Origin: Nocardioides stalactiti
GTDB lineage: Bacteria; Actinomycetota; Actinomycetes; Propionibacteriales; Nocardioidaceae
Assembly: GCF_014180715.1 (NCBI RefSeq)
Contig: NZ_JACEFC010000003.1
Location: 1 to 64,000 of the forward strand
DNA: 64,000 bases
Direction: 5' to 3'
Positions 4,189 through 36,285 of this stretch are shown in pieces. The position numbers and the translations under genes are program-made. Position 1 is the first letter of the stretch, and each line of letters starts with the position of its first letter. The notes beneath the pieces are model-generated. The model did not search any database. It was not told the origin of the DNA and saw only the letters and a program-made list of their open reading frames with translations.

Positions 4189-4199
4189 GCGCCCACTCC

Positions 4200-5758: not shown

Positions 5759-5834
5759 GGCCCGACGCACCCTCGCCCGCCGTCGTACCTGGTCCGGGGC
5801 TCAACTCGCCGACCACCGGAAGTCCGAGGACGTC

Positions 5835-18343: not shown

Positions 18344-18390
18344 CCACCGCTTCTCGCCGGATGTCGTCGTCCACCTCGGCCTTCAGACCG
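18344..18390 (-). pseudogene. Remnant of a second MntA antitoxin C-terminus
   Basis: About 40 of 47 bases match the 3' end of the antitoxin gene (18918-18964). Translated on the minus strand it reads GLKAEVDDDIRREAV against GLKPKVDDDIRREAV in the intact gene. It directly abuts the first repeat hairpin, so a second copy of the module once lay here and has been lost apart from its end. Confidence 0.75.
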
Positions 18391-18910
18391 ACCTGGATGC
18401 GCACGCACGAAGGGCCCGGACAGAATCTGTCCGGGCCCTTCGATCTTGTAGCGGGGGGGAATGTAGAGGCCTGCGACCAACTGGTGCGTGCTCGGCGATC
18501 CCTCGCTCGGATCGACTGCTGCACAGGCAAGTGCCAGGCCCTCGACATGGTCGCTCCTTCCCGTCGAGCGCGGTCTCGGCCTCGTCGAACAGGACTTGTA
18601 GCGAGCCCTTCCACGCTGGCAGGTCTCTGCAGAGCGTGATCCAGGTGAGCTCGCGGTTGATCTCGTCGTACTGGTGAATGATGAAGTTGCGGTTGGCGAC
18701 AGCGAGTGCCCACTCGACTCCCTCGGAAGCGAGCACTCCGAGTCGCGACAACCGGTTGGCCGCTTCGCCGAGCTTCATCATCAGCGAGTCGCCAGCCTCT
18801 TGGAGCAGGTCGTCAGTGAGGTATGCCTCGCGGCCCCGATCCACGATTTCGTCCACGCGAGACACCCACGTCCTGATGTGGATGAGTTCCTTGGCCGCCT
18901 TGATCTCCAT
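18383..18910 (-). CDS. HepT-like HEPN (DUF86) toxin, C-terminus running into the repeat
   Basis: 175 residues. The first ~115 are a DUF86/HEPN all-helical domain ending in the RNase-type motif RNFIIHQYDEIN (R-x4-H-x-Y). HepT proteins act as toxins, neutralised by AMPylation by the partner MntA. Start ATG shares one base with the antitoxin stop (TGATG). Family members usually end near residue 120. Here the frame continues as Cys/Arg/Ser-rich sequence (ALDGKERPCRGPGTCLCSS...) into the repeat hairpin, so the native stop appears lost. Whether the extended form is active is unknown. Confidence 0.8.
   Translation of the reverse strand: MEIKAAKELIHIRTWVSRVDEIVDRGREAYLTDDLLQEAGDSLMMKLGEAANRLSRLGVLASEGVEWALAVANRNFIIHQYDEINRELTWITLCRDLPAWKGSLQVLFDEAETALDGKERPCRGPGTCLCSSRSERGIAEHAPVGRRPLHSPPLQDRRARTDSVRALRACASRSV
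18401..18458. repeat. Palindromic repeat, copy 1 (tRNA 3'-end/terminator-like)
   Basis: Perfect 16-bp stem CGAAGGGCCCGGACAG (18408-18423 with 18427-18442), loop AAT, followed by ATCTTGTAGCGGGGG. On the minus strand the tail reads CCCCCGCTAC, the 3' acceptor end of the initiator tRNA seen at 36.3 kb. Direct repeat with copy 2, bounding the toxin-antitoxin genes. Confidence 0.85.
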
Positions 18911-19383
18911 CAGAGCAGCACCGCCTCTCGCCGGATGTCATCGTCCACCTTCGGCTTGAGACCGCCGTACTCGATCAAGTCGATCTCGCGTCCCAGCACT
19001 CGCTCGAGCAGCTGCTTGAAGCGGATGAAGTCGAACGTCGAACTCCCCTCGGGCGCTTCGACGACAAGGTCGATGTCGGAGTCCTCCCTCGCCTCGCGAC
19101 GAGCGACCGAACCGAACACCGCGAGCCGTCGGTACCCCGAGTCCTCCGCGAGACGCCGGAGAACCGGCGCAGCAGCCTCGACGAGTCGGTCGGGATGCAC
19201 GCCCGACAGGTCCGAAGCCGACTTCAGTTGCTGACTCACGGCCGGCTGACTGACCCCCAGAGCGTTGGCGATCTCACGTTGACTCATCCCTGTCGCCACC
19301 ATCGAGCGCAGGGCGAGGGCACGACGAAGCCGCGCGACCTCTTCCTGCTGCCGCGCAGCGACGTACTCCGCTACCGCGTTCAT
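18910..19383 (-). CDS. MntA-type nucleotidyltransferase antitoxin with N-terminal HTH
   Basis: 157 residues. An N-terminal helix-turn-helix (about 25-55, GMSQREIANALGVSQPAVSQ) is fused to a minimal nucleotidyltransferase with GSVARREAREDSDIDLVV, matching the GSx10DxD motif. MntA enzymes AMPylate HepT toxins and silence them. The added HTH suggests it also represses its own promoter: a perfect palindrome covers the -10 and start codon. Cotranscribed with HepT. The module sits between direct repeats, consistent with acquisition as a cassette. Confidence 0.87.
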   Translation of the reverse strand: MNAVAEYVAARQQEEVARLRRALALRSMVATGMSQREIANALGVSQPAVSQQLKSASDLSGVHPDRLVEAAAPVLRRLAEDSGYRRLAVFGSVARREAREDSDIDLVVEAPEGSSTFDFIRFKQLLERVLGREIDLIEYGGLKPKVDDDIRREAVLL

Positions 19384-19420
19384 AAGGTGACCTTATCAGC
19401 GGTCGAGACCAGGCTCCCAA
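19382..19420 (-). promoter_or_regulatory. Leaderless toxin-antitoxin promoter and autoregulatory palindrome
   Basis: On the minus strand TTGGGA (19420-19415), a 17-base spacer and GATAAG (19397-19392) form a promoter with the -10 eight bases before the ATG, so the transcript is probably leaderless. ATAAGGT-G-ACCTTAT (19382-19396) is a perfect palindrome covering the -10 and start codon, a likely site for the antitoxin HTH. Confidence 0.6.
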
Positions 19421-19442
19421 ACCGACGTCAGAACCTGGTTGC

Positions 19443-19500
19443 GCATGCACGAAGGGCCCGGACAGTAACTGTCCGGGCCCTTCGATCTTGTAGCGGGGGG
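19443..19500. repeat. Palindromic repeat, copy 2
   Basis: Same 16-bp stem as copy 1 (19450-19465 with 19469-19484), loop TAA, same tail ATCTTGTAGCGGGGGG. Weaker similarity to copy 1 continues about 30 bases further. The gap 19501-19672 shows no gene. Confidence 0.85.
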
Positions 19501-19672: not shown

Positions 19673-21019
19673 TCAGCCCGTGGGTACGGCACCTCGTCGC
19701 GCGTTGCGCCGGCTGCCGTTGACGAGGTCGTTGAAACGGTCGATCGCCCAGATCGTCCGGAGTCCCGGACGGCCCATCATCATCGGCCGCGGGAACCTCG
19801 GTTTGTCGTGCCACAGGGTCCGCAGGTCCTCGTGCAGCTCCCCGTCGACGATCGCGTCCGCGATGAGCGTTCCCACGTACGGCGCCTGGGCGAGCCCGTG
19901 ACCGTTACAGGCGATCGAGTAGTGGACGTTGTCACCGACCCTCCCGGCGACGGGGAGCCACGACGAGGTGATCGCGATCCACCCACCCCAGGCACGGTCG
20001 ACCGCGACGTCGGCGAGCGACGGGAACCGCGTGGCGAAGGCACCCGCCAGCTCCTCGACCAGGCCGGGGTCGGGCGTCTTCGCCGGGAGCGGGTACGTCG
20101 TGCCGCGCTCGAGCCGGCGGACGCCGAACACGATGGTGTTGCGCGGAGTGAGCCGGTAGTTCTCCATGATCGCGTGCTGGGTGACCAGGCCCATCCCGCT
20201 GGTCCAGCCGAGGGCGGCGATCCGGGCGGGGTCGATCGGTTCCGTCTCCACCTCGATGACGTAGATGGGCACCGACAGGTGCTTCGGAGTGATGTCCCAC
20301 TCGCCGGCGAACGCGTTCGTGGCGAGCACGACATGGTCCGCTCGGACGGTCCCGTGCGCAGTGGTGACGACGACCCGGTCGCCGTCGCGGGCCACGTCGG
20401 CGACCTTGGTCTGCTCGAAGACCCGAGCGGAGGAGTCGAGGAGCACGCGGCGCATCCCGAGGGAGAACTTGCCCGGGTTCATCCGTCCGCCGATCATCTC
20501 GCGCATGCCGCCGACGAATCCGCGCGGGATCCCGAGCTCCGCGGCTGTGCCCACCTCGACATGCCCCCCCGCGCGGGTCACGATCTTCGCGACCCGACGC
20601 ACCCGACCCATCTGTCCGCGCGAGACGGCGGCGAAGGCGTTGCCGGTCGCCTCGTACTCGCACTCGATGTCGTGCTTGGCGATGAAGTCCTCGACGTGGT
20701 GAGCGGCGTGCTCGGCGAGACGCATCATGCCCGGCATCTTCTTGCGCGAGAGCAGGTTGAGGAGCTGGAGGTCACCCCCGGGCGCGCCGGCCAGCTGGCC
20801 AGCGTTGCGGGAGCTCGACCCGTGGCCGCAGAACTCCGCCTCGACGACCACCACGTCCTGCCCGCGCTGCGCGAGCCGCAGCGCGGTCGACATTCCGCCG
20901 ATACCGCCCCCGATGACGGCGACTTGGCAGGTCACGTCGCCGTCGACGCCAGGCCTGAGGTCCGCGGGGGCGTCGACCCAGCCGCTGAAGGACTCGTAGG
21001 CGACGCTGTCGGTCCTCAT
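19673..21019 (-). CDS. FAD-dependent amine/amino acid oxidoreductase (DAO family, PuuB-like)
   Basis: 448 residues. The FAD motif GGGIGGMSTALRLAQRG (about 36-52) and the SSRNAGQLAG segment are typical of the glycine/D-amino acid oxidase family that includes gamma-glutamylputrescine oxidase PuuB. It would oxidise a secondary amine C-N bond. Last gene of the operon MFS - membrane protein - oxidoreductase, overlapping its neighbour by four bases. A glutamine-synthetase-like ligase, glutamine amidotransferase and aldehyde dehydrogenase a few kilobases away complete a Puu-like set, which supports a gamma-glutamyl-amine substrate (inference). Confidence 0.85.
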   Translation of the reverse strand: MRTDSVAYESFSGWVDAPADLRPGVDGDVTCQVAVIGGGIGGMSTALRLAQRGQDVVVVEAEFCGHGSSSRNAGQLAGAPGGDLQLLNLLSRKKMPGMMRLAEHAAHHVEDFIAKHDIECEYEATGNAFAAVSRGQMGRVRRVAKIVTRAGGHVEVGTAAELGIPRGFVGGMREMIGGRMNPGKFSLGMRRVLLDSSARVFEQTKVADVARDGDRVVVTTAHGTVRADHVVLATNAFAGEWDITPKHLSVPIYVIEVETEPIDPARIAALGWTSGMGLVTQHAIMENYRLTPRNTIVFGVRRLERGTTYPLPAKTPDPGLVEELAGAFATRFPSLADVAVDRAWGGWIAITSSWLPVAGRVGDNVHYSIACNGHGLAQAPYVGTLIADAIVDGELHEDLRTLWHDKPRFPRPMMMGRPGLRTIWAIDRFNDLVNGSRRNARRGAVPTG

Positions 21020-21774
21020 GCCCGCACCGCCTTGCGGTGGTCGTCAGCCGGCGCGCTGCCCGTCGCCTTGTTGTGGTCGTCGAGGGCGCGGTAGGCGAAC
21101 AGGTAGGTCAGCATCTGCAGGCCCCACACGGTGAGCGCGAAGGTGTAGAAGAGTGCGCGATCCTCGAGCGGGTCGACCGAGTCGGGCAGCGGGAAGAAGT
21201 CGTAGGTCAGCGCGACGGCCGTGGCCGCGAGGCTGACCGCGAGCGTGGCGACAGCGACCCGGGTAGCTCCGATCTCCCACAACCGCTTCACGAAGTAGAG
21301 GAGGAAGGCCAGCGTCAGCAGGTTGACCACCAGGTAGAACGTGGCCGGGCCCTGGTGCAGGAGGAACTCTCCGTTGTCGTCCACGTGGTCGCGGTACTTC
21401 GGCTGTGCCAGGAAGAGGCCGCAGCCGATCGCCAGGGCGAAGACACCGATCTCGACCGCGAGGCTCGCCTTGTAGCGATGGGTCACCGCCAACAGGCCGA
21501 CCACCAGTAGCAAGGTGATCCCGATGGACCGGGAGAACGCATCGAGGAAGAACGCGAACGCGTACTGCCCGCTGGCCTCACCTCCGTCCGGATCGTCGGC
21601 GAAACGCAGCGCCCAGACCAGGAAGTTCGTGCCGGAGGTCGCGACGATGAACCACTCGATGCCGAGCAGGTAGTTGCGGTGGTGCTTGATGAAGCGCCAT
21701 CCCGCCCAGTAGCCGCACACGATCATGATCAGGTCGGCGACCAGGAAGGTCAGGCCGTAGATGTCTTCTTTCAT
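21016..21774 (-). CDS. Uncharacterised seven-helix membrane protein
   Basis: 252 residues with about seven hydrophobic helices, beginning FLVADLIMIVCGYWAGWRF and ending with a short charged tail (DDHNKATGSAPADDHRKA). No family recognised. The first loop has HRNYLLGIEWF, and a DDPDGGEAS loop lies between helices 2 and 3. It sits between an MFS transporter and the FAD oxidoreductase with a four-base overlap, so it is part of the amine-catabolic operon. It may be an accessory transporter subunit, a sensor, or an electron-transfer partner for the oxidoreductase. Confidence 0.75.
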   Translation of the reverse strand: MKEDIYGLTFLVADLIMIVCGYWAGWRFIKHHRNYLLGIEWFIVATSGTNFLVWALRFADDPDGGEASGQYAFAFFLDAFSRSIGITLLLVVGLLAVTHRYKASLAVEIGVFALAIGCGLFLAQPKYRDHVDDNGEFLLHQGPATFYLVVNLLTLAFLLYFVKRLWEIGATRVAVATLAVSLAATAVALTYDFFPLPDSVDPLEDRALFYTFALTVWGLQMLTYLFAYRALDDHNKATGSAPADDHRKAVRA

Positions 21775-21813
21775 GTCATTTCCTTGGAGTGAGTAGGGCC
21801 GGCCGAGACACCG

Positions 21814-23277
21814 TCAGGCCGCGATGCCGTCGGTACGGCGGGCGCGGGTGGTCGAGACCAGGACGGTCAGCACGACGGCGAGAGCGAGCGCGGCCGCGAG
21901 CCAGTAGCCGACGCCGTACAGGCTCTCGGCCGCGACCTCCAGCGTCGTTCCTGGGACGGGGACGAGGGAGGCGCTCAGGTCGGCGCTGACGAGGGCGGTG
22001 CCGAAGGCGAAGCCGACGGCGAGGAAGGTGCCGGCCACCCCGGTCGCCATCCCCGCCTTCTCCTCGGGCACGGCCAGCTGCACCAGCGTGAAGCCGGCCG
22101 CGTAGCCGATGCTGCAGCCGAGACCGATGATCGCGGCACCGACCAGGTAGTGCCACTTCTGGTCGTGCGCGAGGGCGAGCCAGGTCAGCCCGGCGGCGCT
22201 GATGAGGGCACCGCTCACGAAGACCGGCACCACGCGGCCGTTGTTGACGGGACGGTCGACGATGGCACCGCCCACGACGAACGTCACCGCGAACGGCAGC
22301 ATCAGCCAGCCGGTCTCGAGCGCGCTGAGGCCAAGCCCGTAGGAGTCGACGGGACGCAGCGCCTCGGGGATGATCTGGGCGTAGGTGCTGACGAGGAGCA
22401 GGAACGCCGAGTTGACGGCGGCGAACAGTGCAATGCAGATGCACGAGGCCGTGACCAGCGGGGCCTTCATCAGCGCGACGTCGAAGACGGCCGTCGACGA
22501 CCTGCGCTCCACCCGGACCCACGCGATGCCGCCCACCACGCCGAGCACCAACGGGATCAGCGCGGCGTTGCCCCACACGAGACCCTGGGTCAGCGTCAGC
22601 AGGATCGCCGCGACCCACGCGATCATCCACACGGTGCCGACGACACCGATGCTGCCGGTCCGGACAACGGGCGGGGCGTGCGGGATCAGCAGGTACGACG
22701 CGAGCGTGGTCACCGCGCCGATGGCGGTGAGGACCACGAAGAAGCTCTGCAGCGACAGGCTCTGGACGATCAGCCCGCCGCCGATCATGCCGGCGACGAT
22801 GCCGACACCCGTGCCGATGACCAGGACCGCGACCGCGACGGTGATGCCACCCTCCCCGAGACCGCGGCGCAGGAATCCGAGCGGGAGCACCTGGGCGGCC
22901 CCGCCGAAGCCCATCAGGGCGCAGCCGACGAGCAACGTCGGGTAGGAGTCCCCGACCGCCGGCACGAGCGCACCGGCCGTCAGGAACGTCGCGGCGGCGA
23001 CGTTGGCGTTCCGGTCGCCGTACAGGTCGGCCAGCCGGGGCAGGAGGATGAAGCCCGCTCCCCCGCCGAGGGTGAGGACCGTGTAGAGCCACGTCGTCTC
23101 CGCGACCGTGGCGAGGCCGTACTGCGCCTGGATGACCGGCAGCAGCGGCGGGAGGATGAAGATCACCGCGTTGGTCAGCACGACCAGCAGTGAGCCGATG
23201 CCGACGAGCGTCCCCTTGCCGGGCGTTCGTCCTGCCGTCGCACGGCGGTCGCTTCCAGCCTCGTGGGTCTGGGTCAT
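21814..23277 (-). CDS. MFS transporter (QacA/drug:H+ antiporter-like layout)
   Basis: 487 residues, about 14 hydrophobic helices; motif A-like segment RLADLYGDRNANV between helices 2 and 3. It probably moves the amine or acid handled by the surrounding enzymes, though the layout is shared by drug exporters. The ATG at 23277 with GGAGACC just upstream is chosen; a frame extending to 23361 passes through the operator region. First gene of the leftward operon. TTAGTCA-type half-sites lie 55-100 bases upstream, pointing to control by the divergent TetR gene. Confidence 0.9.
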   Translation of the reverse strand: MTQTHEAGSDRRATAGRTPGKGTLVGIGSLLVVLTNAVIFILPPLLPVIQAQYGLATVAETTWLYTVLTLGGGAGFILLPRLADLYGDRNANVAAATFLTAGALVPAVGDSYPTLLVGCALMGFGGAAQVLPLGFLRRGLGEGGITVAVAVLVIGTGVGIVAGMIGGGLIVQSLSLQSFFVVLTAIGAVTTLASYLLIPHAPPVVRTGSIGVVGTVWMIAWVAAILLTLTQGLVWGNAALIPLVLGVVGGIAWVRVERRSSTAVFDVALMKAPLVTASCICIALFAAVNSAFLLLVSTYAQIIPEALRPVDSYGLGLSALETGWLMLPFAVTFVVGGAIVDRPVNNGRVVPVFVSGALISAAGLTWLALAHDQKWHYLVGAAIIGLGCSIGYAAGFTLVQLAVPEEKAGMATGVAGTFLAVGFAFGTALVSADLSASLVPVPGTTLEVAAESLYGVGYWLAAALALAVVLTVLVSTTRARRTDGIAA

Positions 23278-23331
23278 GAGTGGTCTCCGATTCGGGCGAA
23301 CGATGTGATCCGACTCATACGGTAGGCCTAA

Positions 23332-23375
23332 CTTAGTCATACGATCAAGATGTATGACCAAGTTGTTTGACTAAG
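23332..23375. promoter_or_regulatory. TetR operator cluster with TTAGTCA/TGACTAA half-sites
   Basis: TTAGTCATAC (23333-23342) and GTATGACCAA (23352-23361) are inverted, and CTTAGTCA (23332-23339) also mirrors TGACTAAG (23368-23375). Related sequences lie at 23312-23320 and 23419-23430. They fill the gap between MFS (minus) and TetR (plus). The same half-site recurs at 31.85 and 32.01 kb. Confidence 0.6.
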
Positions 23376-23470
23376 GTTTTCTAGACGCCCTCAGCAGGGA
23401 GCCCTGCTAGGCTCGTCTTTGACTTAGACAAGCGCCCAACTTTGTGGCGCCCAGGCACCCGGAGGCCCAG

Positions 23471-24106
23471 ATGGCACGGATCCCCGTCGCCCAGCGACGT
23501 CGCGACTTCATCGATGCGGCCGTCGAGGTGATCGCCAGCAACGGGATCGACGGCGCCACCACGCGCCGGATCGCCGAGCAGGCCCAGGCGAATGTGGCGA
23601 TGCTGCACTACTGCTACGACTCGAAGGAGGACCTCTTCGCCGACGTCTACGAGTTCGTCGCGAGCCGGTTCCGCCAGGTCATCGAGGAGAGCGACCCGCA
23701 CTCGACGGTGCTCGAGACCGCGCAGGCGATCATGCGGGGCGTGATGGAGTGCTACTACGACTCCCCCAGCTTCGGCGCCACCACGCTCGAGCTGATCAAC
23801 TGGGCCCGGCGCCAGCACGGCGACCGCGGCATCGCCGTCTACGACCAGGCCATGCAGGTCGGGCTCGAGGTGCTGCGCCGCGTCGCCGCCGAGGAGGGCG
23901 TCAGCGCCGACGTCGTCGACGAGATCCCCTATGTCATCGGCGCGCTCTCCGACGGCTTCGCGATCAACTTCCTCACGTACGGCGATCGCGCGGCCGCCAA
24001 GGCCCAGATGGACGTCACCGCGTCGGTGCTGGACAGCTGGCTGTCTGCACGGCTCGCGGCCGGTCCCGCCAAGCCGGAGCGACGCAAGCGCGCGGCCAGC
24101 GCCTGA
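23471..24106 (+). CDS. TetR family transcriptional regulator
   Basis: 211 residues. N-terminal HTH (TTRRIAEQAQANVAMLHYCYDSKEDL, about 33-58) and an all-helical ligand-binding domain. A GGAGG ribosome site before the ATG at 23471 is preferred to an in-frame start nine codons upstream. It diverges from the MFS operon and converges on the aldehyde dehydrogenase that ends the long catabolic operon. TTAGTCA half-sites at its own promoter and at the two operons near 31.8-32.0 kb suggest it is the block's master repressor, released by a pathway metabolite (inference). The Lys/Arg-rich tail is unusual but short. Confidence 0.9.
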   Translation: MARIPVAQRRRDFIDAAVEVIASNGIDGATTRRIAEQAQANVAMLHYCYDSKEDLFADVYEFVASRFRQVIEESDPHSTVLETAQAIMRGVMECYYDSPSFGATTLELINWARRQHGDRGIAVYDQAMQVGLEVLRRVAAEEGVSADVVDEIPYVIGALSDGFAINFLTYGDRAAAKAQMDVTASVLDSWLSARLAAGPAKPERRKRAASA

Positions 24107-24127
24107 CGCGCTGACCGCGCGCCGCGA

Positions 24128-25582
24128 TCAGATCGGGAGGTCGGGCGAGTCGACGCCCACGACCCGGTCGCCGCAGAACACCCGGACGGACTCGGCCGGT
24201 CCGTGGCCACCGATGCCGGAGGGTCCCCAGAAGCTCTGGGCAGAGTCGTCGCCGAGGTCCGCGACCTTGGCGCCGTTGACCCGAACCTCCCCCGCGACGA
24301 TACGAGTGCCGACCTCGATCGCGCGGTCGGTATCGGCACCGAACACGTAGGCGTCCAGCCCTGACGGGTTCGCGTTCGCGATCCGCAGTGCCTCCTCGGC
24401 GGAGTCCACGGCGTGCAGCGAGACGACCGGCCCGAACAGCTCAGCGGTCGCCTGCGCGGGATCGGCACCCACGGCGACGGTCGGCGAGAGGAAGAACCCG
24501 CCGAGGTCGGGCAGGGTCGCCGGCTGGTGGATCTGCGCCCCCAGGCCACGCAGTCCCTCGATCCGCGACTGCAGGGTCTGGAAGTGCGGGGCGTTGGAGA
24601 TCGGACCGACCTGGCTGTCGTCGTCGAGCGAGTGGCCCACGACGAGCTTGGAGATCCGCTCGGTCAGCGCCTCGACCAGCGGCCCGACGAGCGCGGGTGG
24701 GGCGAGCACCTTGCCCGGGCCCTCGCACCACTGCCCGTTGAGCTTGGTCATCCCCTCGAGGATGCCGTCAGCGGTGACGTCCACGTCCGCGTCATCGAGC
24801 ACGACGACCGGGTTGTTGCCGCCCAGCTCGAGCTGCAGCACCTTGAAGTCCTCGGCAGCGACGCGGGCGATGGCGCGACCGGCACCGGGACCGCCCGTGA
24901 AGGAGACGACCTTGATCCGCGGGTCGGCTGTCAACTGCGCGCCGACGTCGCCAGCGCCGTGCACGAGCTGCAGGGCTCCCGAGGGCAGGCCGGCCCCGAC
25001 GAAGCACTCGACCACGACCTGGGCGCTACCTGACGCATGTTCGGAGGGCTTGAGGATCACCGGGCAGCCGGCCGCGATCGCGCTGACGACCTTCGCCGCC
25101 GGGATGAAGCTGGGCCCGTTCCACGGGGTGAGGATCGCCGCAGGGCCCCACGGCACCTTGTGGAGACGTACGTCGCGGCCGCCGGCCTCGAGGGCGCTCA
25201 CGCGCGGGATGGCGCGCAGGTCGGCCGCCGTTGCGCGGATCCGGTGGGGCAGGAAGGCCGCCACCAGGCGGGTGGTCGCGATCGGCGTACCGCTGGTCAG
25301 AGCGTCGGTCCGTGCGATGTCCTCGATCCGCGTCTCGACCAGGTCGGCGACGCGTTCGAGGATCGCCGCCCGCTCGTGGCGCGCTTCCTCGTCCCAGGGA
25401 CGGGCGTCGTACGCCTGCTCGGCGTGGCGCAGCGCTGTCTCGACGTCGTCGGGCGAGGTGGTGACGAGCCGGTGGACGGGCTCGCGGGTGTTGGGGTCGA
25501 GGTTCCAGGCCTCGCCCGTCGTGCCCTCGCTCCACTCGTCGGCGACGTAGTTGACGGGCTGCGGGATGGTGATCTGGTTCAT
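24128..25582 (-). CDS. Aldehyde dehydrogenase family protein
   Basis: 484 residues. Motifs: TPWNGPSFIPAAKV, KPSEHASGSAQ, catalytic Glu in LELGGNNP, nucleophile Cys in GQWCEGPGKV. An NAD(P)-dependent oxidation of an aldehyde to its acid is expected. It is the last gene of a seven-gene operon, 13 bases after the alcohol dehydrogenase. In a Puu-like scheme it would take the gamma-glutamyl-aminoaldehyde made by the FAD oxidoreductase. Equally it could take the aldehyde made by the adjacent alcohol dehydrogenase. Confidence 0.92.
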   Translation of the reverse strand: MNQITIPQPVNYVADEWSEGTTGEAWNLDPNTREPVHRLVTTSPDDVETALRHAEQAYDARPWDEEARHERAAILERVADLVETRIEDIARTDALTSGTPIATTRLVAAFLPHRIRATAADLRAIPRVSALEAGGRDVRLHKVPWGPAAILTPWNGPSFIPAAKVVSAIAAGCPVILKPSEHASGSAQVVVECFVGAGLPSGALQLVHGAGDVGAQLTADPRIKVVSFTGGPGAGRAIARVAAEDFKVLQLELGGNNPVVVLDDADVDVTADGILEGMTKLNGQWCEGPGKVLAPPALVGPLVEALTERISKLVVGHSLDDDSQVGPISNAPHFQTLQSRIEGLRGLGAQIHQPATLPDLGGFFLSPTVAVGADPAQATAELFGPVVSLHAVDSAEEALRIANANPSGLDAYVFGADTDRAIEVGTRIVAGEVRVNGAKVADLGDDSAQSFWGPSGIGGHGPAESVRVFCGDRVVGVDSPDLPI

Positions 25583-25595
25583 GGTGCGTCTCCTG

Positions 25596-26693
25596 TCAGG
25601 CCTGGAGGTCGACGACGATGCGGGTGACGTCGCCGGACAACATCAGCTCGAAGCCGTCGTTGATCGCGGCGAAGGGAATGACGCGGGTGACCATCTCGTC
25701 GAGCATCAGCCGACCCTGCTGGTAGAGCCGGGCGAACTGGGCGATGTCCTCACGGGCCTGGCCCGAGCCCATGTAGGAACCGATGAGTCGCTTCTCCTGG
25801 AAGAAGAAGTCCAGTGCGGGGACCCTCAGCTCGGTACCCATCGGCGCGATCCCGACGAGGCACGCGGTGCCGGTCGGCCGGAGCAGGGCGAGTGCCGTCT
25901 CGGCCGTGCGGGCTGAGCCAACGGCCTCGAACGCGTAGTCGACGCCGTCGCCGAGCTCGCGGTGCAGCTCCGCCACCGGGTCGACGTCAGCACCGTTGAT
26001 GGTGTGCGTGGCGCCGTAACCGCGGGCGGCCTTGAGCCGGTCGTCGTCGAGATCGATCGCCACGACGGCCGAGGCGCCGGCCAGCCGCGCGCCCTGGACG
26101 ATCGCGGAGCCGACGCCGCCGCAGCCGATGACCGCGACCGTGCTGCCCGGCCGCACCTGCGCACCGCGGAAGACCGCGCCCACGCCGGTGACGATGCAGC
26201 ACGACAGCAGGCAGCCGACGTGGAGCGGCACGTCGTCGGGCAGCCGGACGAGCGCGTTCTCCCGCAGCAGGATGTGCTGCGAGAACGCACCGATGGCGGC
26301 GAGGCGCTCGATCGGGCGACCGTCCACGGTCTCGAACGCGGGTCGCTGCCGCAGGCGCACCTCCTCCAACCGGGTGCACTGGGTCGAGTGCCCGGCCTCG
26401 CAATTGGCGCACCGTCCGCACGACGGTGTCAGTGCGCCCGTGACGCGGTCGCCCGGGCTCAGCGAGGTAACGGCGGAGCCGACGGCCTCGACCACCCCGG
26501 CGACCTCGTGCCCGACGACCACCGGAAGGTCCGTCGGCACGGTGCCGGTCATGTAGTGCAGGTCGCTGTGGCACAGCCCCACATGGGTCACCGCGACGCG
26601 CACCTCGTGCGACTCGGGGTCGTCGACCCGGATGTCGGTCAGCTCCAGTGGTGCCCCGATCTCGTTGAGGACGGCGGCTCGGGTGGTGATCAT
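25596..26693 (-). CDS. Zinc-dependent alcohol dehydrogenase (class III/aryl-alcohol type)
   Basis: 365 residues. Catalytic zinc ligands in VGLCHSDLHYMTG and GHEVAGVVE; the structural zinc lobe CGRCANCEAGHSTQC has four cysteines. The Rossmann motif VIGCGGVGSAIVQG follows. The fold matches the long-chain zinc enzymes often called Zn-dependent aryl- or formaldehyde-type dehydrogenases. ATG overlaps the enoyl-CoA hydratase stop (ATGA). It likely oxidises an alcohol released by the esterase encoded in the neighbouring operon (inference) and hands the aldehyde to the adjacent dehydrogenase. Confidence 0.92.
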   Translation of the reverse strand: MITTRAAVLNEIGAPLELTDIRVDDPESHEVRVAVTHVGLCHSDLHYMTGTVPTDLPVVVGHEVAGVVEAVGSAVTSLSPGDRVTGALTPSCGRCANCEAGHSTQCTRLEEVRLRQRPAFETVDGRPIERLAAIGAFSQHILLRENALVRLPDDVPLHVGCLLSCCIVTGVGAVFRGAQVRPGSTVAVIGCGGVGSAIVQGARLAGASAVVAIDLDDDRLKAARGYGATHTINGADVDPVAELHRELGDGVDYAFEAVGSARTAETALALLRPTGTACLVGIAPMGTELRVPALDFFFQEKRLIGSYMGSGQAREDIAQFARLYQQGRLMLDEMVTRVIPFAAINDGFELMLSGDVTRIVVDLQA

Positions 26694-27463
26694 GCGGAGG
26701 TCTCCTTCGTGTTCCAGAAGCCGGCGACGCCGGCGGTGAGCAGGCCGCTCGTCCACGCCTCGCGGGCGGCGACGTCCTCGCGCGCGAAGGCCGCCTCCAC
26801 CTCCGCGAGCAGGGGCCGCAGCAACGCGAGGTGCAGCGCCGTCGTTCCGCCGTCCGGGGTCCAGGCGTGGACGGTCTCGACGGCGTGGTCGACCAAGGCG
26901 TCGGGGTCGACGACCTCGTCCAGCAGGCCGATCCGCAGCGCCTCGTCGGCGGGCACACGCGGCGAGGCGAGCACCATGCGCATCGCGTGGTTGCCGACCA
27001 GCCGCCGCAGCAGCAGGCTCGTCGCATTCGAGATGGTCAGCCCGCGCGCGTTCTCCGGCTGGAAGTACGACGTCGCAGGCGTCCCGATCCGGGCGTCGCA
27101 GCACAGCGTGATCTCGGAGGCTCCGCCGACGGCGAGGCCGTTGACGGCCGCGACCACAGGGACCCGGGTCTCGAGGATCGCGCGGGTGACGTCGTGGAAG
27201 CTCTCGAACGCCCGGTCGACCTCCTCGTCGGTGGTCGGTGCCTGCTGCAGGTCCTCGCCGGCGGAGAAGGCGCGGCCGCGGCCGGTGAGGACGATGCCGC
27301 GGACGGCGTCGCCCGTGCCGAGCTCGCGCACCAGGGCGGCGAGCCGCAGCCGCATGGCGACCGTGAGGGCGTTGAGCTTCTCGGATCGGTCGAGCGTGAG
27401 CACGGCGACATCGCGGACGATGTCGACGGCAATCTGCTCCTCGGTGACGGACGGGACGGTCAT
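26690..27463 (-). CDS. Enoyl-CoA hydratase/isomerase family protein
   Basis: 257 residues of crotonase fold. The oxyanion and active-site segments are GRAFSAGEDLQQA and VNGLAVGGASEITLCCDARIGT, with the ENARGLTIS substrate region. The usual second glutamate is not obvious, so isomerase or hydrolase activity is also possible. It sits two bases after the acyl-CoA ligase stop and overlaps the alcohol dehydrogenase. It would act on the CoA ester formed by that ligase, as a step of beta-oxidation or ring cleavage. Confidence 0.88.
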   Translation of the reverse strand: MTVPSVTEEQIAVDIVRDVAVLTLDRSEKLNALTVAMRLRLAALVRELGTGDAVRGIVLTGRGRAFSAGEDLQQAPTTDEEVDRAFESFHDVTRAILETRVPVVAAVNGLAVGGASEITLCCDARIGTPATSYFQPENARGLTISNATSLLLRRLVGNHAMRMVLASPRVPADEALRIGLLDEVVDPDALVDHAVETVHAWTPDGGTTALHLALLRPLLAEVEAAFAREDVAAREAWTSGLLTAGVAGFWNTKETSA

Positions 27464-27465
27464 GG

Positions 27466-29073
27466 TCAGCTCCTCGGTCGGGCGAAGTCGTGGGTGATAC
27501 CCGGCTGGTCGGCAGCTCGGGCCTTGAGGGCGGCCTTCGAGACCCGCTCGGACGGGGTCCGGGGGAAGTCGGCGACGAACTCGACGTAGCGCGGCACCTT
27601 GAAGCGAGCGAGCTGCGCGCGCGCTACCTCGAGGACCTGCTGCGCGGTGACGCGGTCGGCCGCCACGCCGTCCCTAAGCTGGACGAACGCCTTGACCTCC
27701 TCGCCCAGCACGTCGTCCGGTACGGCGACGACGGCTGCCGCGACGACCCGGTCGTCACGCTCGAGAACGGCCTCGACCTCGGCACAGGCGACGTTCTCGC
27801 CGCCGCGCCGGACCATGTCCTTGATCCGGCCGACCAGCTGGAGGCCGCCGTCGGGACGGCGGACGACCAGGTCGCCGGTGTGCAGCCACCCCTCCCGCAG
27901 CACGTTGGCGGTGGCGTCGGGTCGGTTCCAGTAGCCGCCCATCATCGGCGCGCCCGAGATGACCAGCTCCCCCGGCTCACCGAGCGCGACCTCGACAGCG
28001 GGATCGGCGGGGTCGACGACCCGGACCTTCTTGGTCGGCACCGGGCGGCCCAGGCTCCCGCTGCCCACGGCCGCGGTGTCGTCGAACGGGCAGAGCAGGT
28101 CGACGCCCGACTCGGTCATCCCGTAGATCTCGCGCCACGGTGCCCCCCACCGCTCCTCCAGCGCGGCGTGCAGGGCCACCGGGATGCCCGAGCAGAACAC
28201 CATGCGGAGGTCGTTGTCACGGTCGTCGGGAGACGGCGGCTGCTTGAACAGCAGCGTCGGCATCGAGCCGAGGACGTAGAAGAAGGTCGCCCGGTGCCGG
28301 CGTACGTCCGCCATGAACGTCGACGCCGAGAACCGCGGCAGCACGACCAGGGGCGCACCGACGGTCAGCGCGAGCGCGGTGTTCCACTGCGGATCCATGT
28401 AGGAGAAGGGCTGCGACGTCAGCAGCACGTCGTCGCTGCCAAGGCCCGTGGCCGCGGCGCAGACCCAGCCCAGCCGCACCCAGTAGCCGTGGGAGAGCTG
28501 GCACGCCTTGGGAAATCCGGTCGTGCCGGAGGTGTACTGGAGGTTGGCCAGGGTCCCGGCGTCGACCGGCAGCCCGGGCGCCGTGTCCGGGAAGTGCTCG
28601 GACCCGTCGTCGGCGACGTCGACCACTCGGACGCCGGACAGCCCGTCCTCGCTGTCGATCACGTCGTGGACCAGACCGGACCGATCGGCATCGGTGAAGA
28701 CGATCCGCGCCCCCGAGTCACCAAGGACGAACGCGAGGTCCGACCGCTGGTAGCTGCAGTTGACCGGTACGACGACCGCTCCCGCCTTGAGCGCTGCCAG
28801 CCACACGACGGGCCAGTGCACGACGTTCGGCAGCATCAAGGCGACCCGGTCGCCGGGCTCGATGCCGTCCACCTCGATCATCCGGTGGGCCAGTCGGGAG
28901 GTCCAGGCGTCGATCTCGGCGAAGGTCCAGGTCCACTCCCCGAAGCGCAGGAACTCGCGCTCACCGGCATCCTGCGCCCGGTGAGCGAGCAGACCGGTCA
29001 GCGTTGGCACGACGGGCTCGTGGCCCATCCGCTCGGCCGCGACGGCGGGCTGGTGGCTCAGGTCCGTGGTCAC
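27466..29073 (-). CDS. AMP-binding acyl-CoA synthetase
   Basis: 535 residues of the ANL superfamily. The P-loop YTSGTTGFPKA, the A5 motif IYGMTESG, the hinge TGDLVVRRPDGGL and the C-terminal Lys region (SERVSKAALKAR) are all visible. It activates a carboxylic acid to its CoA ester via an acyl-AMP. A GTG start overlaps the amidotransferase stop (GTGA). It works with the enoyl-CoA hydratase next to it. The acid is probably a product of the aldehyde dehydrogenase or of the esterase in the divergent operon. A second ligase, 34646-36211, is a distant relative. Confidence 0.92.
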   Translation of the reverse strand: MTTDLSHQPAVAAERMGHEPVVPTLTGLLAHRAQDAGEREFLRFGEWTWTFAEIDAWTSRLAHRMIEVDGIEPGDRVALMLPNVVHWPVVWLAALKAGAVVVPVNCSYQRSDLAFVLGDSGARIVFTDADRSGLVHDVIDSEDGLSGVRVVDVADDGSEHFPDTAPGLPVDAGTLANLQYTSGTTGFPKACQLSHGYWVRLGWVCAAATGLGSDDVLLTSQPFSYMDPQWNTALALTVGAPLVVLPRFSASTFMADVRRHRATFFYVLGSMPTLLFKQPPSPDDRDNDLRMVFCSGIPVALHAALEERWGAPWREIYGMTESGVDLLCPFDDTAAVGSGSLGRPVPTKKVRVVDPADPAVEVALGEPGELVISGAPMMGGYWNRPDATANVLREGWLHTGDLVVRRPDGGLQLVGRIKDMVRRGGENVACAEVEAVLERDDRVVAAAVVAVPDDVLGEEVKAFVQLRDGVAADRVTAQQVLEVARAQLARFKVPRYVEFVADFPRTPSERVSKAALKARAADQPGITHDFARPRS

Positions 29074-29840
29074 GACTCACTCCTCCGCTCGAGCAGCCGG
29101 GTCGCCTGGCGGACGACCCAGGTCAGTGTCGGGTCGGCGCTCTTCATCCACTCCGGGTGCCACTGGACGCCGAGGACGGGGTGACCGGGCACCTCGATCG
29201 CCTCGACGACGCCGTCCGCGGTGCGGCCGGTGACGACGACGCCGACGCCGCAGCGGTCGACGGCCTGGTGGTGCCAGGAGTTGGTGACGACATCGCCGTC
29301 GAAGAGGCCGGCGGCGATGGATCCCGGCTCGAAGGAGACGAGATGGTCCACGGTCCCATCGGTGGGCGCGCACTCCTCGGACAGGTGGCTCACCGGTCCG
29401 GCGGGCAGGTCCGGGACGAGAGTGCCGCCGAGCGCGACGTTGAGCACCTGCAACCCGCGGCACACACCGAGGACCGGAATCCCGCGGTCGAGGGCCGCGC
29501 GGACGACGGCCACCTCGTAGTCGTCGCGCTCGCGGTCGTGGACCATCGGGTCGGTGCGTGGGTCGATGCCGCTGACCACCGACGGGTCTCCGCCCCAGCA
29601 GGTGGGATGCATGTCCTGGCCGCCGGTGATGACGACTCCCGCCAGCCAGTCACACACGGCGTCGGGGTCGGTGTCGTAGGAAAGGTGCACCGGGAGCCCA
29701 CCGGCCTCAGCGACGCGCGTCGCGAAGTCCGACATCGCGGTGTCGACGCACCGGTCGCCGTACCTCTCGTCCGAACCCTCGATGAGGGAGAGCCGGAAAC
29801 GTCGTCCGGTGATGCCGACGAGCGGCCTCCGCGCGCTCAC
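29070..29840 (-). CDS. Class I glutamine amidotransferase/gamma-glutamyl hydrolase (PuuD-like)
   Basis: 256 residues from a GTG start that overlaps the glutamine-synthetase-like stop (GTGA). The triad is plain: nucleophile Cys in VLGVCRGLQVLN, His and Glu in GVQWHPEW. The fold and length match gamma-glutamyl-gamma-aminobutyrate hydrolase (PuuD), which removes the glutamyl group after oxidation. Its place directly after the ligase that adds the group is the key context. A frame to 30251 extends far upstream but lies inside the ligase gene. Confidence 0.9.
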   Translation of the reverse strand: MSARRPLVGITGRRFRLSLIEGSDERYGDRCVDTAMSDFATRVAEAGGLPVHLSYDTDPDAVCDWLAGVVITGGQDMHPTCWGGDPSVVSGIDPRTDPMVHDRERDDYEVAVVRAALDRGIPVLGVCRGLQVLNVALGGTLVPDLPAGPVSHLSEECAPTDGTVDHLVSFEPGSIAAGLFDGDVVTNSWHHQAVDRCGVGVVVTGRTADGVVEAIEVPGHPVLGVQWHPEWMKSADPTLTWVVRQATRLLERRSES

Positions 29841-31180
29841 GGGAACTCGAAGTAGCGCTGGGACTCCCACGCGGAGAGCTCGGCGAACGGGTCGCCGCCC
29901 TTGGTGTGGAACTCCATCCACTCCCAACGGCGCGATGCGACCCAGAAGTCGACGAACTCGTCGCCGAGGTAGGCCCGCAGCAGCGGGTCGGCGGCGAGCG
30001 CAGCACCGGCCTTCGACATCGTGTCGGGGATGCGTTCGACTCCGATGTCGTCGGGCAGGCACCAGGCCATGTCCGTGACCTCGGCGGGCGGCTCGATCTG
30101 CCGCTCGATGCCGGCGAGCACCCCCGCCAGCACGCCCGCGAGGGCGAGGTAGGGATTCACGTCGGCGCCGGGCAGCCGGTACTCGAGGCGGCTGTACTTC
30201 GGGTGGCCGGTGATCGCGCGGACTGCCGCGGTCTTGTTGTTGACGCCCCAACTGATGGTCGTCGGGGGCCCGGTCAGGTCGACCAGGCGGCGGTAGGACG
30301 TGATCTGGGGCAGCGCGATCGCGGTGTTGCCCGCCATCGTGGCGAGCAGGCCGCCGACCGCGTGTCGCATCAGGTCGGACGGGCCGTCCTCGTCGAAGAA
30401 CCGGTTCACCCCGTCGCTCTGCAGCGAGATGTTGATGTGCGCGCCCTGGCCGAAGCCGGCCGTGGGCTTGGCCATGAACGACACGGTGTGGCCGAGCTCG
30501 AAGGCGACCTCTCGCATGACCTGTCGGGTCCGGGCCCAGCCATCCGCGAGCCGCACGGGGTCGGTCGGCGCGAGGTTGAGCTCGGTCTGCCCGGGAGCGG
30601 CCTCGTCGGTCCAGGCCTCCCAGGTGATGCCGACCCGGTCGAGCCGTTCGACGACCGCCTCCATATAGGCGATCCAGTCGCTGGAGCGGGCCAGGTGGTA
30701 CGTCGACCCGGTGCTGCCGCCGAGGGGTGTGAGGTCGCGGTACCCGCGTGCCCGGGCCTCGTGCACGGACTCCTCGAACAGCGTGGCCTCGATCTCGACG
30801 GCCACGGTGGCGTCGTACCCGAGGTCGGCGAGGCAGGCCACGAGCTTCCTGACGAGGTTGCGCGGACAGATCGGGACAGGAGTCCCGTCCTTGAGCCAGT
30901 AGTCACCGATCACCGCGTCCAGGCCGGGCTTCCACTCCACGAGCGTCGCCAGGTCCGGGATCATCTGGATGTCGTAGAGGTTGCCGCGCCACTCTGGGAA
31001 GGCGTCACCGAGCACGATCTCGTTGTTGAGGTCGATCGCGAACAGGATGTCGGCGAACGCGAAGCCGGCCTCCTTGCCGGCCTCGAACTTCGCCGGGGAC
31101 ACGTTCTTGCCGAGGAAGCTGCCCTCGTGGTTCGTCGCCTCGAGGCGGACGGCCCGCCGGGCGATGGTGGTCTCAGACAT
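29837..31180 (-). CDS. Glutamine synthetase family ligase (gamma-glutamyl-amine synthetase type)
   Basis: 447 residues. GS catalytic motifs: metal-binding EIEATLFEE, GQTELNLAP, ATP/ammonia region GQGAHINISLQ, and NPYLALAGVLAG. Sequence around the N-terminus (ADILFAIDLNNEIV) and lack of a regulatory adenylylation tyrosine resemble PuuA/IpuC-type ligases, which attach glutamate to an amine instead of ammonia. It starts eight bases inside the preceding gene and is followed by the PuuD-like hydrolase. So an exogenous amine is probably glutamylated first (inference). A nitrogen-assimilating GS is less likely in this setting. Confidence 0.9.
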   Translation of the reverse strand: MSETTIARRAVRLEATNHEGSFLGKNVSPAKFEAGKEAGFAFADILFAIDLNNEIVLGDAFPEWRGNLYDIQMIPDLATLVEWKPGLDAVIGDYWLKDGTPVPICPRNLVRKLVACLADLGYDATVAVEIEATLFEESVHEARARGYRDLTPLGGSTGSTYHLARSSDWIAYMEAVVERLDRVGITWEAWTDEAAPGQTELNLAPTDPVRLADGWARTRQVMREVAFELGHTVSFMAKPTAGFGQGAHINISLQSDGVNRFFDEDGPSDLMRHAVGGLLATMAGNTAIALPQITSYRRLVDLTGPPTTISWGVNNKTAAVRAITGHPKYSRLEYRLPGADVNPYLALAGVLAGVLAGIERQIEPPAEVTDMAWCLPDDIGVERIPDTMSKAGAALAADPLLRAYLGDEFVDFWVASRRWEWMEFHTKGGDPFAELSAWESQRYFEFP

Positions 31181-31826
31181 CGAAGCGGACCTTCCAGGAG
31201 GCAGCGGTCATGACCGACAGCTGCGAGAGGGTGCCCTGCACCTGCAGGCCGGCACTCAGGGAGACGAGGAAGTCGTCGGCGCCGCTGAAGACGCCGGCGA
31301 GGAGGTCGGCGGGACCGGTGATGCCGTACGACGTGGCGCCCTCGCCGAACCGAGCCCGCTCAACCCCATCCGGGACGACAGCGTGCACGTCGAGGACATC
31401 CGGGATGCCGGGAATCTGACGCGTCGCCTCCCAGAACCGGGCGGCGGCATCGCGCCAGTGCGGCACTGTCGGCGTCAGCGACAGAAGCACATCTGCGGCC
31501 AGGGCCGCGTCTCCCCGTGGCTCCTGGGTCGCCGCGAAGCGGGCGTTGAGGTCGACCACGACCGTGGCGTCGGGCTCGGCCGGCGCGCCGGCGACCACCT
31601 CGACGGTGCCGCCGACGAAGGTGATGGTCGCCGTCTGCGGGGTGTCGTGGGAACGGACCGCCACCGTGCCGCTGGCCCGGTCCAGCACCTCCACGGCGTT
31701 GCCGGCGATCGCCGCGTCGCGCAGGGTGCGACCCACCAGCCGGACCATCGGGGTCGCGTCGTCCTCGATCGCGATGTTCGGGACGGCCTGCCGCATCGGT
31801 GCGGCGATCGTCGTGGTTGCAGCCAT
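31173..31826 (-). CDS. Uncharacterised protein, possibly SCP2-like
   Basis: 217 residues. A TITFVGGTVEVVAG strand and a DATVVVDLNARF stretch vaguely resemble the sterol carrier protein 2 fold, and the C-terminus LSAGLQVQGTLSQLSVMTA fits the family's final helix. This is pattern similarity only. It is the first gene of the long operon and overlaps the ligase by eight bases. The ATG MAATTT is chosen over an upstream in-frame start that covers the operator. A ligand or acyl carrier role fits an operon with CoA ligases. Confidence 0.6.
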   Translation of the reverse strand: MAATTTIAAPMRQAVPNIAIEDDATPMVRLVGRTLRDAAIAGNAVEVLDRASGTVAVRSHDTPQTATITFVGGTVEVVAGAPAEPDATVVVDLNARFAATQEPRGDAALAADVLLSLTPTVPHWRDAAARFWEATRQIPGIPDVLDVHAVVPDGVERARFGEGATSYGITGPADLLAGVFSGADDFLVSLSAGLQVQGTLSQLSVMTAASWKVRFDV

Positions 31827-31851
31827 CTCTCGGCCCTTTCTCGACTGGTTG

Positions 31852-31867
31852 TTAGTCATTTGACTAT
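31852..31867. promoter_or_regulatory. TetR-type palindromic operator
   Basis: TAGTCA-TT-TGACTA (31853-31866) is a perfect palindrome sitting 26 bases upstream of the first gene of the leftward operon. Its half-sites match those at the TetR promoter (23.33 kb) and at 32.0 kb. Confidence 0.6.
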
Positions 31868-32002
31868 AACGTGTGACCATGATGGTGCGTGCTTCAGGTC
31901 ACGTTGTCAACCACCGAGCCGGACGAGATCGCGACCAGCTCCCGAATTCGCGAGAGCCCCTTGACGAGAGGTGACCCTTGCCACACACTTGGCCAACAGA
32001 CT

Positions 32003-32018
32003 CAATCAAATGACTAAC
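32003..32018. promoter_or_regulatory. Second half of the divergent operator pair
   Basis: ATCAAATGACTAAC lies 17 bases before the monooxygenase ATG; 12 of 14 positions match the 31853-31866 palindrome read on the other strand. Repressor bound here would block the rightward operon, as the other site blocks the leftward one. Confidence 0.5.
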
Positions 32019-32034
32019 TCGCGGAGGCGCTGAG

Positions 32035-33558: not shown

Positions 33559-34649
33559 GCACGCAGCACTTCACCCTGGGCCAGCGTCTCCAGCGGCTTC
33601 TCCTCGTCGCGCTCAGCCACTTGCCGGCCCCGCTCCAGCGGGTGCTGGCGCGTCCGCCAGTCAACAGCGCCGGTGACCGGATGGCCCCCGACGTGGCACT
33701 CCTGATGAAGCTCAGCGAATCCGCCGAGGACTTCAGCGACCTGTCCGCCACTGAGGCGCGGCAGGTCACCGAGCGGGACCTCGCGCTGTTCGGCGACCGC
33801 ATTTCACCATGTGCCCTCGAGGAGGAGGTCGAGATCCGCGACGGGCTGTGGGCCACCCGCTACCGGTCCGGGCAATCGGCCCGCGACCTGATCCTGTTCT
33901 TCCACGGCGGCGGCTTCGCGCTCGGCAGCCGAGCGAGCTACACCGCTCCGGCCCGCATGCTCGCTCACGGGACCGGGGCCGACGTCCTCTCCGTGGAGTA
34001 CCGCCTCGCACCGGAGCACCCCTTCCCTGCGGCCCACGATGACGCGCTTGCCGCCTGGCACCACGTCGTCACTCACGCCGCGGACTGGGGCATCGACCCG
34101 CGTCGGGTCGTGGTGGCCGGCGAGAGCGCCGGCGGCAACATCGCCGCGGTCCTCTGCCAGCAGGTGCGCGGCCAGGACGTCCAGCCCGTCCTCCAGGTGC
34201 TGATCCAGCCGGTGACCGACGTCTCGGTCCATCGCTCCTCCCAGGACGAGTTCGCCGACTCCCCCGCGCTGACCGCCCAGCAGGTCGCGTGGTTCATGGG
34301 GCACTACCTGCCCGAAGGGACCGACGTCGCCGATCCGCGCGTCTCCCCGCTCCGTGCGGCGAGCCTCGAAGGCCTCCCGCGCGCCATCGTCACCCTCGGC
34401 GGGTTCGACCCGCTGCACGACGACGGCCACGCCTACGCCACGGCACTGCTGGAGAACGGCGTGCCGACGACGGTGATCCGCGAAGCCGGCAACGTGCACG
34501 GCTACCTCTCCTTCACGGCCCTCAGCCCGAGCAGCAAGGCCGCGACCGAGCGACTCGTCGCTGCGATCCGCACGACCCTGGACGAGCGGTCGGGACGGAC
34601 CGCCGACCTCACGGTCACCGAGGCAGCCCTCGCCAGGGACACAAGATGA
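33555..34649 (+). CDS. Alpha/beta hydrolase, HSL/acetyl esterase family
   Basis: 364 residues. The HGGGF oxyanion motif (117-121), nucleophile elbow GESAGG with Ser191, then acid and histidine in FDPLHDDG and NVHGYLSF define the hormone-sensitive-lipase group. It should hydrolyse the ester made by the monooxygenase gene it overlaps (ATGA). The frame extends upstream to 32253 antisense-like within the monooxygenase, but ATG at 33555 is the true start. It shares the next four bases with the acyl-CoA ligase. Confidence 0.92.
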   Translation: MSTQHFTLGQRLQRLLLVALSHLPAPLQRVLARPPVNSAGDRMAPDVALLMKLSESAEDFSDLSATEARQVTERDLALFGDRISPCALEEEVEIRDGLWATRYRSGQSARDLILFFHGGGFALGSRASYTAPARMLAHGTGADVLSVEYRLAPEHPFPAAHDDALAAWHHVVTHAADWGIDPRRVVVAGESAGGNIAAVLCQQVRGQDVQPVLQVLIQPVTDVSVHRSSQDEFADSPALTAQQVAWFMGHYLPEGTDVADPRVSPLRAASLEGLPRAIVTLGGFDPLHDDGHAYATALLENGVPTTVIREAGNVHGYLSFTALSPSSKAATERLVAAIRTTLDERSGRTADLTVTEAALARDTR

Positions 34650-36211: not shown

Positions 36212-36246
36212 GCACCAGCTCGCGGCGCGCCACAGGTGTGCACGCA

Positions 36247-36281: not shown

Positions 36282-36285
36282 ATTT

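Follow-up and report, generated by a model that had tools for sequence, protein, structure and literature searches.

A toxin-antitoxin pair between two tRNA-end repeats

The window, by which we mean the whole stretch of 64,000 nucleotides of Nocardioides stalactiti DNA analysed here, harbours a toxin-antitoxin (TA) pair that lies between two direct copies of a repeat carrying the acceptor end of tRNA-fMet. A third copy of this repeat is found next to a tyrosine integrase gene. The features relevant to this arrangement are the following (positions are those of the window):

18345..18390, minus strand: remnant of a second mntA (C-terminus, last codons), direct repeat D3, abutting repeat copy 1 directly
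18383..18910, minus strand: hepT open frame, 175 aa, HepT-like (PF01934, E 1.4e-9)
18391..18458, minus strand: copy 1 of the repeat, comprising the acceptor end of tRNA-fMet, a palindrome resembling a terminator (18408-18442) and a tail of about 20 nt; a candidate for a decayed scar on the attR side
18910..19383, minus strand: mntA, minimal nucleotidyltransferase of 157 aa with GSX10DXD and an HTH-like N-terminal part (PF01909, E 8e-13, above cut-off)
19382..19396, no strand assigned: palindrome ATAAGGTGACCTTAT, which overlaps the start codon of mntA; putative operator or promoter
19433..19500, minus strand: copy 2 of the repeat, with acceptor end, a palindrome at 19450-19484 and tail; a candidate for a decayed scar on the attL side
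19673..36211, no strand assigned: block between copies 2 and 3, from an FAD oxidoreductase gene (19673-21019) to an AMP-ligase-like gene ending at 36211
36237..36330, minus strand: repeat copy 3, palindrome (36247-36281) and a perfect tRNA-fMet 3' half (tRNA positions 33-76, at 36287-36330); read as attR of a rightward island
36490..37599, plus strand: tyrosine integrase gene next to copy 3 (Phage_integrase PF00589, E 1e-26)

The Pfam matches bear out the first-pass annotation of this DNA, which had named a HepT/MntA pair of about 1 kb between the repeats. The pair has the make-up of class I HepT/MntA systems, namely adjacent PF01934 and PF01909 genes and both signature motifs: RX4HXY is present in HepT (RNFIIHQY, residues 74-81), and GSX10DXD in MntA (G91 S92 ... 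D103 I D105) is invariant across 17 aligned sequences. Matches of the N-terminal part of MntA to HTH families (E 8e-5 to 7e-4) each lie under their Pfam cut-off. In an alignment with nine homologues, the homologous part of HepT comprises about the first 119-125 aa (18536-18910), and intact homologues stop at about 119-130 aa. The window frame is unbroken across this part and extends to 175 aa; because its normal stop has been lost, hepT reads through the scar with 50-odd extra codons. PADLOC has no model for HepT and assigns MntA to the candidate system PDC-S09. Apart from mntA and hepT, the frames between copies 1 and 2 are antisense or overlapping, and no recombinase gene lies between 18391 and 19500, nor do any integrase or transfer genes lie inside the unit.

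Class I HepT proteins are RNases with the RX4HXY motif, which MntA silences by transferring AMP to a tyrosine, and the pair of Shewanella oneidensis autorepresses its promoter and increases plasmid stability in E. coli, according to two reports (PMC7641770, PMC4621449). As described there, the Shewanella pair shares with the window both Pfam domains, both motifs, the antitoxin gene in first position and a promoter palindrome. In contrast to the window MntA with its sub-threshold HTH-like part, the Shewanella protein has no predicted DNA-binding domain in these descriptions; the window HepT further differs in having lost its normal stop. By analogy, the window MntA would inactivate its partner RNase by AMPylating the tyrosine within the RX4HXY motif. 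A motif related to the palindrome, TGATAAGRTNNCCTTATG, overlaps the start codon with small changes in 19/19 mntA genes compared (the window and 18 homologues), and one might guess that its TAAGGT-like part is the -10 element of a leaderless transcript.

The direct repeat D1 spans 68 nt (18391-18458 versus 19433-19500) with 94% identity, its two starts lying 1042 bp apart. A repeat with the tRNA-fMet acceptor end and a terminator on both sides of the pair had thus been described correctly before, except that its length is 68 rather than 58 bases. Searching the whole 4.55-Mb genome with D1 recovered three copies, every one inside the window (18391-18458, 19433-19500 and 36237-36297), the third matching query positions 8-67 at 95% identity; all other matches are the palindrome on the opposite strand or short pieces with E 0.27 and worse. 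The repeat is therefore not, in its own genome, a common terminator spread over loci without cargo. A perfect 17-bp palindrome with a 1-nt loop is present in every copy, in agreement with the shared stem noted earlier at 18.4, 19.45 and 36.25 kb, although copy 3 extends further, to 36330, when its tRNA half is counted. The 68-nt stretches fold far better than shuffled sequences (z -6.3, -6.1 and -6.1), and GTAGCGGGGG, adjoining the palindrome, gives the 3' end of tRNA-fMet when read on the opposite strand.

As such, all three copies look like tRNA-fMet ends plus terminator. Copies 1 and 2 retain the palindrome, the tail and 10-11 acceptor-end bases; past the acceptor end their likeness to tRNA-fMet is weak (best 24-nt match P 0.043 and 0.126, respectively), and a T-arm appears barely recognisable. 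TCGCAG is common to both at the correct offset with P of about 0.0015 each, for a word picked post hoc. ARAGORN reports no tRNA gene in the window, and Rfam nothing above its gathering scores. That two ordinary strong terminators merely happen to stand around an ordinary TA pair is very improbable: strong hairpins behind tRNA-fMet are common in Nocardioides, but here the repeats are 68 nt long and 94% identical, a genome of 4.55 Mb has just three copies of them, each inside this window, and the linkage of the module to tRNA-fMet described below is far over expectation.

The D3 remnant on the far side of copy 1 adds a further element. Its 46 nt agree with 18919-18964, within mntA, at 40/46 bases, the similarity ends on both sides, and its position suggests that the unit was once repeated. 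Together with the weak T-arm, this leaves room for plain duplication at copies 1 and 2, that is, a purely local tandem duplication of the fMet terminator, a few tRNA bases and mntA-hepT, with no site-specific integration at these two copies and with the repeat acting as a two-way terminator for hepT. Such an event would also account for the palindrome and the part of the tail that copies 1, 2 and 3 share, which simple accretion leaves unexplained. We nevertheless regard it as unlikely, given the genus-wide linkage to tRNA-fMet and the same layout at other tRNAs, and duplication alone does not explain why an fMet terminator from 17 kb away flanks this very module.

The third repeat copy and its integrase

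In copy 3, the match to tRNA-fMet runs through the complete 3' half and stops in the anticodon loop, and the tyrosine integrase gene starts 160 bp beyond. A tRNA 3' half with an integrase nearby is the classic layout of islands in tRNA genes, so copy 3 is read as the attachment site left by an island; a match to a site-specific recombinase, which the first-pass annotation had wanted looked for, is thereby in hand. The same combination occurs twice in one related genome (G179), where integrases 86% and 72% identical to that of the window adjoin 44-nt fMet fragments. In another (G247), an fMet fragment of equal length (44 nt) has no such integrase within the 10 kb read. Behind the integrase gene, at 38035-38192, lie pieces that resemble its end part with 72-88% identity over short stretches in changing frames, and that probably represent the remnant of a second integrase gene.

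The intact tRNA-fMet of the genome itself is located on another contig (C226), followed by a terminator that differs from that of copy 3; G025, G179 and G247 have, by eye, a terminator of the C226 type after tRNA-fMet or a fragment of it. A contig end interrupts the rightward island, leaving its attL on C226 physically separate. Near 36.3 kb, the G+C content drops from about 0.70 to about 0.66. In two (G119, G139) of six relatives inspected, the block between copies 2 and 3 lies within about 2-8 kb of an intact tRNA-fMet; the six constitute half of the 12 other genomes with at least 11 kb of this block. Given this neighbourhood, we take everything in the window to the left of 36.3 kb to lie downstream of tRNA-fMet, and the island to extend rightward. 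At the far end of the block, none of the six relatives has an fMet scar. Within the same genome, 7.6 kb of the block have a second copy, 74% identical, at G000:C253:42467-50158.

No empty site was found for the TA unit of the window in these six relatives, as the DAO gene has another far neighbour in each of them. The region from 10.6 to 18.34 kb was considered as a shared chromosomal flank and rejected, since only 4/208 genomes besides its own match it, and these in short pieces.

The module at tRNA ends in Nocardioides and beyond

MntA is present in 28/215 Nocardioides genomes, this one included. Linkage was assessed for 31 of 32 MntA places (the second half of a broken gene in G212 was omitted) against 75 fMet ends among the matches listed, each with E of about 1e-8 or better and containing tRNA sequence; matches to other tRNAs, matches confined to the palindrome and weaker fragments (E of 8e-8 and worse) were set aside. 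Within 1, 10 and 50 kb of such an end on the same contig lie 7, 12 and 18 of the 31 MntA genes, where random placement predicts 0.05, 0.37 and 1.82, and the observed counts were reached in 0/200,000 simulations; these are not counts of independent events, as draft contigs conceal some links and close relationship inflates others. The strand agrees with that of the nearest tRNA end in 18/18 MntA genes linked within 50 kb, and the linkage persists when the window locus is taken out (6, 11 and 17 of 30). The remaining 13/31 are not within 50 kb of any fMet end among the matches listed. Hence the check in relatives that had been proposed for the window comes out strongly in favour of a bond between the module and tRNA-fMet.

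Several of these loci resemble the window at close range. In four genomes (G240, G013, G225 and G193), an fMet fragment follows mntA at a near-constant distance of 535-569 bp; in G129, a tRNA-Pro(GGG) fragment follows hepT; and in G179, an fMet fragment with hairpin precedes mntA while a bare hairpin follows hepT. G193 has an fMet fragment on both sides of the pair, the left one on a contig with, by eye, an overlapping end. Part of the 450 bp before mntA in G193 had by eye been taken for a recombinase remnant, a candidate that was dropped because Pfam found no family there. At five loci (L100-L104), about 230 bp of non-coding DNA between hepT and the fMet fragment are, by eye, conserved and contain recurring words like GGTCACAT to CCAGCAAG. 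As a guess from these words, the stretch might be an arm-binding region for the integrase; it is missing between hepT and the site in the window copy.

The layout is not confined to Nocardioides. A scan of named genomes yielded at least 78 MntA loci, 52 of which (L144-L195) were used, the partial or distant ones (L196-L221) being omitted. Knoellia remsis has an intact tRNA-Lys with mntA-hepT behind it and, further on, a 38-nt tRNA-Lys 3' fragment (95%), and two Aeromicrobium metagenome-assembled genomes (MAGs) with identical MntA carry mntA-hepT after an fMet end and before an fMet fragment. Single TA pairs between tRNA ends, as envisaged by the first-pass annotation for other copies, thus exist elsewhere. 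These TA-only units measure about 1.0-1.1 kb, and no integrase was seen inside them. At the 7 loci of the module where it was measured, the distance from tRNA end to mntA is 106-235 bp.

A test for repeats around the pair that needs no tRNA library was applied to 60 loci among the matches listed. The window scored 56, Knoellia 32, the Aeromicrobium pair 22 and 22, L188 (an exact 17-mer) 17, L186 14 and the rest at most 12, whereas randomly paired flanks gave a mean of 10.2 with 95% at 12 and a tail up to 46, which we put down to the pairing of fMet-bearing flanks of different loci. Accordingly, 54/60 loci among the matches listed have no flanking direct repeat above a score of 12, and only 4/60 have a clear repeat on both sides, two of these being the MAGs with identical MntA. 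The TA-only unit between tRNA ends is therefore real, yet a minority state.

An empty site for the Knoellia unit was likewise not found: in the flanks of eight other Knoellia genomes, tRNA-Lys is not beside the same upstream gene, and the downstream glycosyltransferase turned up in 1/10 genomes searched, that one from another genus. Phage records contain no MntA, viral contigs have four weak matches over a short stretch, and the 18 plasmid records with a match all show less than 60% identity and none covers 80%. The collections searched thus gave no carrier among phages or plasmids.

Probable island decay and the persistence of the pair

The first-pass annotation had proposed that the module is a small cassette that moves between such sites. 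In its strongest form, this would be a self-contained 1-kb MntA-HepT cassette with tRNA ends as att sites, moved between tRNA genes in trans by the integrases of resident islands and kept by addiction. The TA-only units of about 1.0-1.1 kb at fMet and Lys in three genera, the closeness of mntA to the tRNA end and the fMet-type integrase resident in the genome speak for it. The MntA tree, however, does not unite these units. In 63 rows (L163 is the same genome as L244, so that the INT group includes one genome twice), the 6 TA-only rows need 5 changes, at least 3 of which are forced by well supported branches; shuffled labels need 5.4 on average and as few as observed in 238/500 cases. For a 157-aa protein with many weak forks this is a moderate argument, but scattered TA-only MntA that form no single clade argue against a single self-moving cassette. 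Two further points tell in the same direction, namely the scarcity of loci with a clear repeat on both sides and the absence from the window of the stretch of about 230 bp that, judged by eye, could be the integrase arm region. A mobile cassette is thus distinctly unlikely, and the idea that it moves by itself was not upheld. The scattered tree, the lack of an integrase in the units and the existence of integrase-bearing relatives of the module together make repeated decay of larger islands the better reading.

One pair of loci may capture such a step. G228 and Nocardioides sp. Root682 each have an island at tRNA-Ala(CGC); the tRNA of G228 is intact, with mntA beginning 235 bp after it. The two loci can be aligned through the tRNA and about 80 nt beyond. 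The alignment resumes 15 nt before mntA and runs through hepT and also the next gene. Between these parts, xis-int is present in Root682 only, where the intervening stretch is about 1.96 kb, against 0.14 kb in G228. The tree alone does not give the direction of this change; because G228 branches beside the integrase-bearing group (100/95), the simplest reading is that G228 lost xis-int and kept the pair. Its HepT is frameshifted.

The state of the toxin genes is informative in its own right. All 13 full-length or nearly full-length Nocardioides HepT (12 full, G193 to residue 100) have an adjacent MntA, in a tally that omits three remote matches (29-35%; G204, G243 and G014) and HepT pieces, two of which (G191, G033) have no MntA match. 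Conversely, HepT is broken or undetected beside 8 of the 21 full-length MntA (G179 (C1), G011, G129, G197, G039, G228, G051 and G230), counting 20 full-length MntA at 67% identity or more plus G184 and leaving out partial or 39-41% matches. Across 61 loci among the matches listed, which were found through MntA, that gene is intact in 59 and HepT in 38. An intact toxin was thus not seen without its antitoxin, as expected of an addiction pair: the toxin dies first, as addiction predicts. In line with this order of loss, many copies lack a whole toxin; among the TA-only units, those of G179 and L150 (an Aeromicrobium MAG) have a truncated or frameshifted hepT.

With a probability of about 0.66, we regard the unit at 18.39-19.50 kb as the CIME-like remnant of a tRNA-fMet island in a tandem array, decayed to its addiction module. 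Specifically, an island would have inserted into the 3' end of tRNA-fMet, and some such Nocardioides islands carry MntA-HepT near one attachment end, where the pair would punish loss after excision. Downstream of tRNA-fMet, islands may then have accumulated in tandem: the youngest would run from 36.33 kb on and include the integrase gene, and copies 2 and 1 would be the scars of older ones, provided that these two copies were once real attachment sites. Subsequently, the island between copies 2 and 1 would have lost everything except MntA-HepT, as deletions that spare the pair survive, most likely because loss of the antitoxin while the toxin works costs the cell. The window would then show an end point of decay, itself still decaying, as the missing hepT stop suggests. 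Both this order of events and addiction as the reason for the survival of the pair are what we infer from the pattern as a whole.

Several observations do not fit easily. Simple accretion leaves a single chromosomal terminator, yet the window has three that are nearly alike; beyond the acceptor end, copies 1 and 2 resemble tRNA-fMet weakly; and the block lies beside tRNA-fMet in only two of the six relatives. Moreover, 13 of the 31 MntA are not within 50 kb of an fMet end, 54 of the 60 loci have no direct repeat above a score of 12 around the pair (both among the matches listed), Knoellia offers no empty site, and the toxin is not always kept, as G179 and L150 exemplify.

CIMEs are decayed elements with att scars in tandem ICE/IME arrays, as set out in PMC5704250. 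By that description, the window unit resembles them in having no integration or transfer genes, in its putative att-site remnants and in sharing an array at one tRNA with an element that bears an integrase; copy 3, with its fMet 3' half and integrase, has the same orientation as the TA unit 17 kb off. It departs from the CIMEs described there in that its content is a single TA pair of about 1 kb and its putative att cores are heavily decayed. The candidate att flanks consist of the fMet acceptor end and terminator with a weak T-arm in the window, and are clear in the Knoellia and Aeromicrobium units. A TA pair that maintains a composite island in a tRNA gene is known from Shewanella putrefaciens, where HipAB stabilises the composite genomic island CGI48 at tRNA-Trp (PMC8978831). 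In contrast to the window, the pair there is HipAB, and the island is complete at 48 kb and has integrases, so it is no TA-only remnant.

CIMEs in arrays and TA-stabilised tRNA islands are hence already known (PMC5704250, PMC8978831). CIME-like units of about 1 kb that hold only a TA pair and recur at different tRNAs did not appear among the literature matches listed; in titles and the beginnings of abstracts, with most subscription journals outside this set, neither TA-only tRNA cassettes nor HepT/MntA at Nocardioides tRNA-fMet islands were found. If the cassette reading were true, the unit would rank among the smallest integrative units, about 1 kb without a recombinase, across several actinobacterial genera and tRNA genes. 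Under the decay reading, such units would be natural end points, reached more than once and at different tRNAs, at which the addiction module outlives its carrier and the toxin breaks before the antitoxin. In turn, the long-held idea that TA pairs persist because they are unsafe to lose would become open to a phylogenetic count, and the tRNA-fMet of Nocardioides would be a site at which the order of stacked islands can be followed.

Many Nocardioides genomes contain two to five fMet 3' ends (for example G003, G009, G013, G026, G034, G044, G053 and G179), mostly in one orientation, kilobases to over 100 kb apart and with recurring terminator types behind them. From this pattern, tRNA-fMet appears to be a general integration hot spot with stacked islands in this genus. 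At one locus (L113 in G217, 2221-7629), MntA-HepT stands directly before a DUF3375 gene (PF11855); the genes that follow look by eye like a Wadjet-type defence set, in which DUF3375 is the gene tested with Pfam. At three other loci (L151, L157 and L069), two intact tRNA-fMet genes lie in tandem, about 0.15-2.4 kb apart, and mntA with a broken hepT follows 0.1-6 kb downstream.
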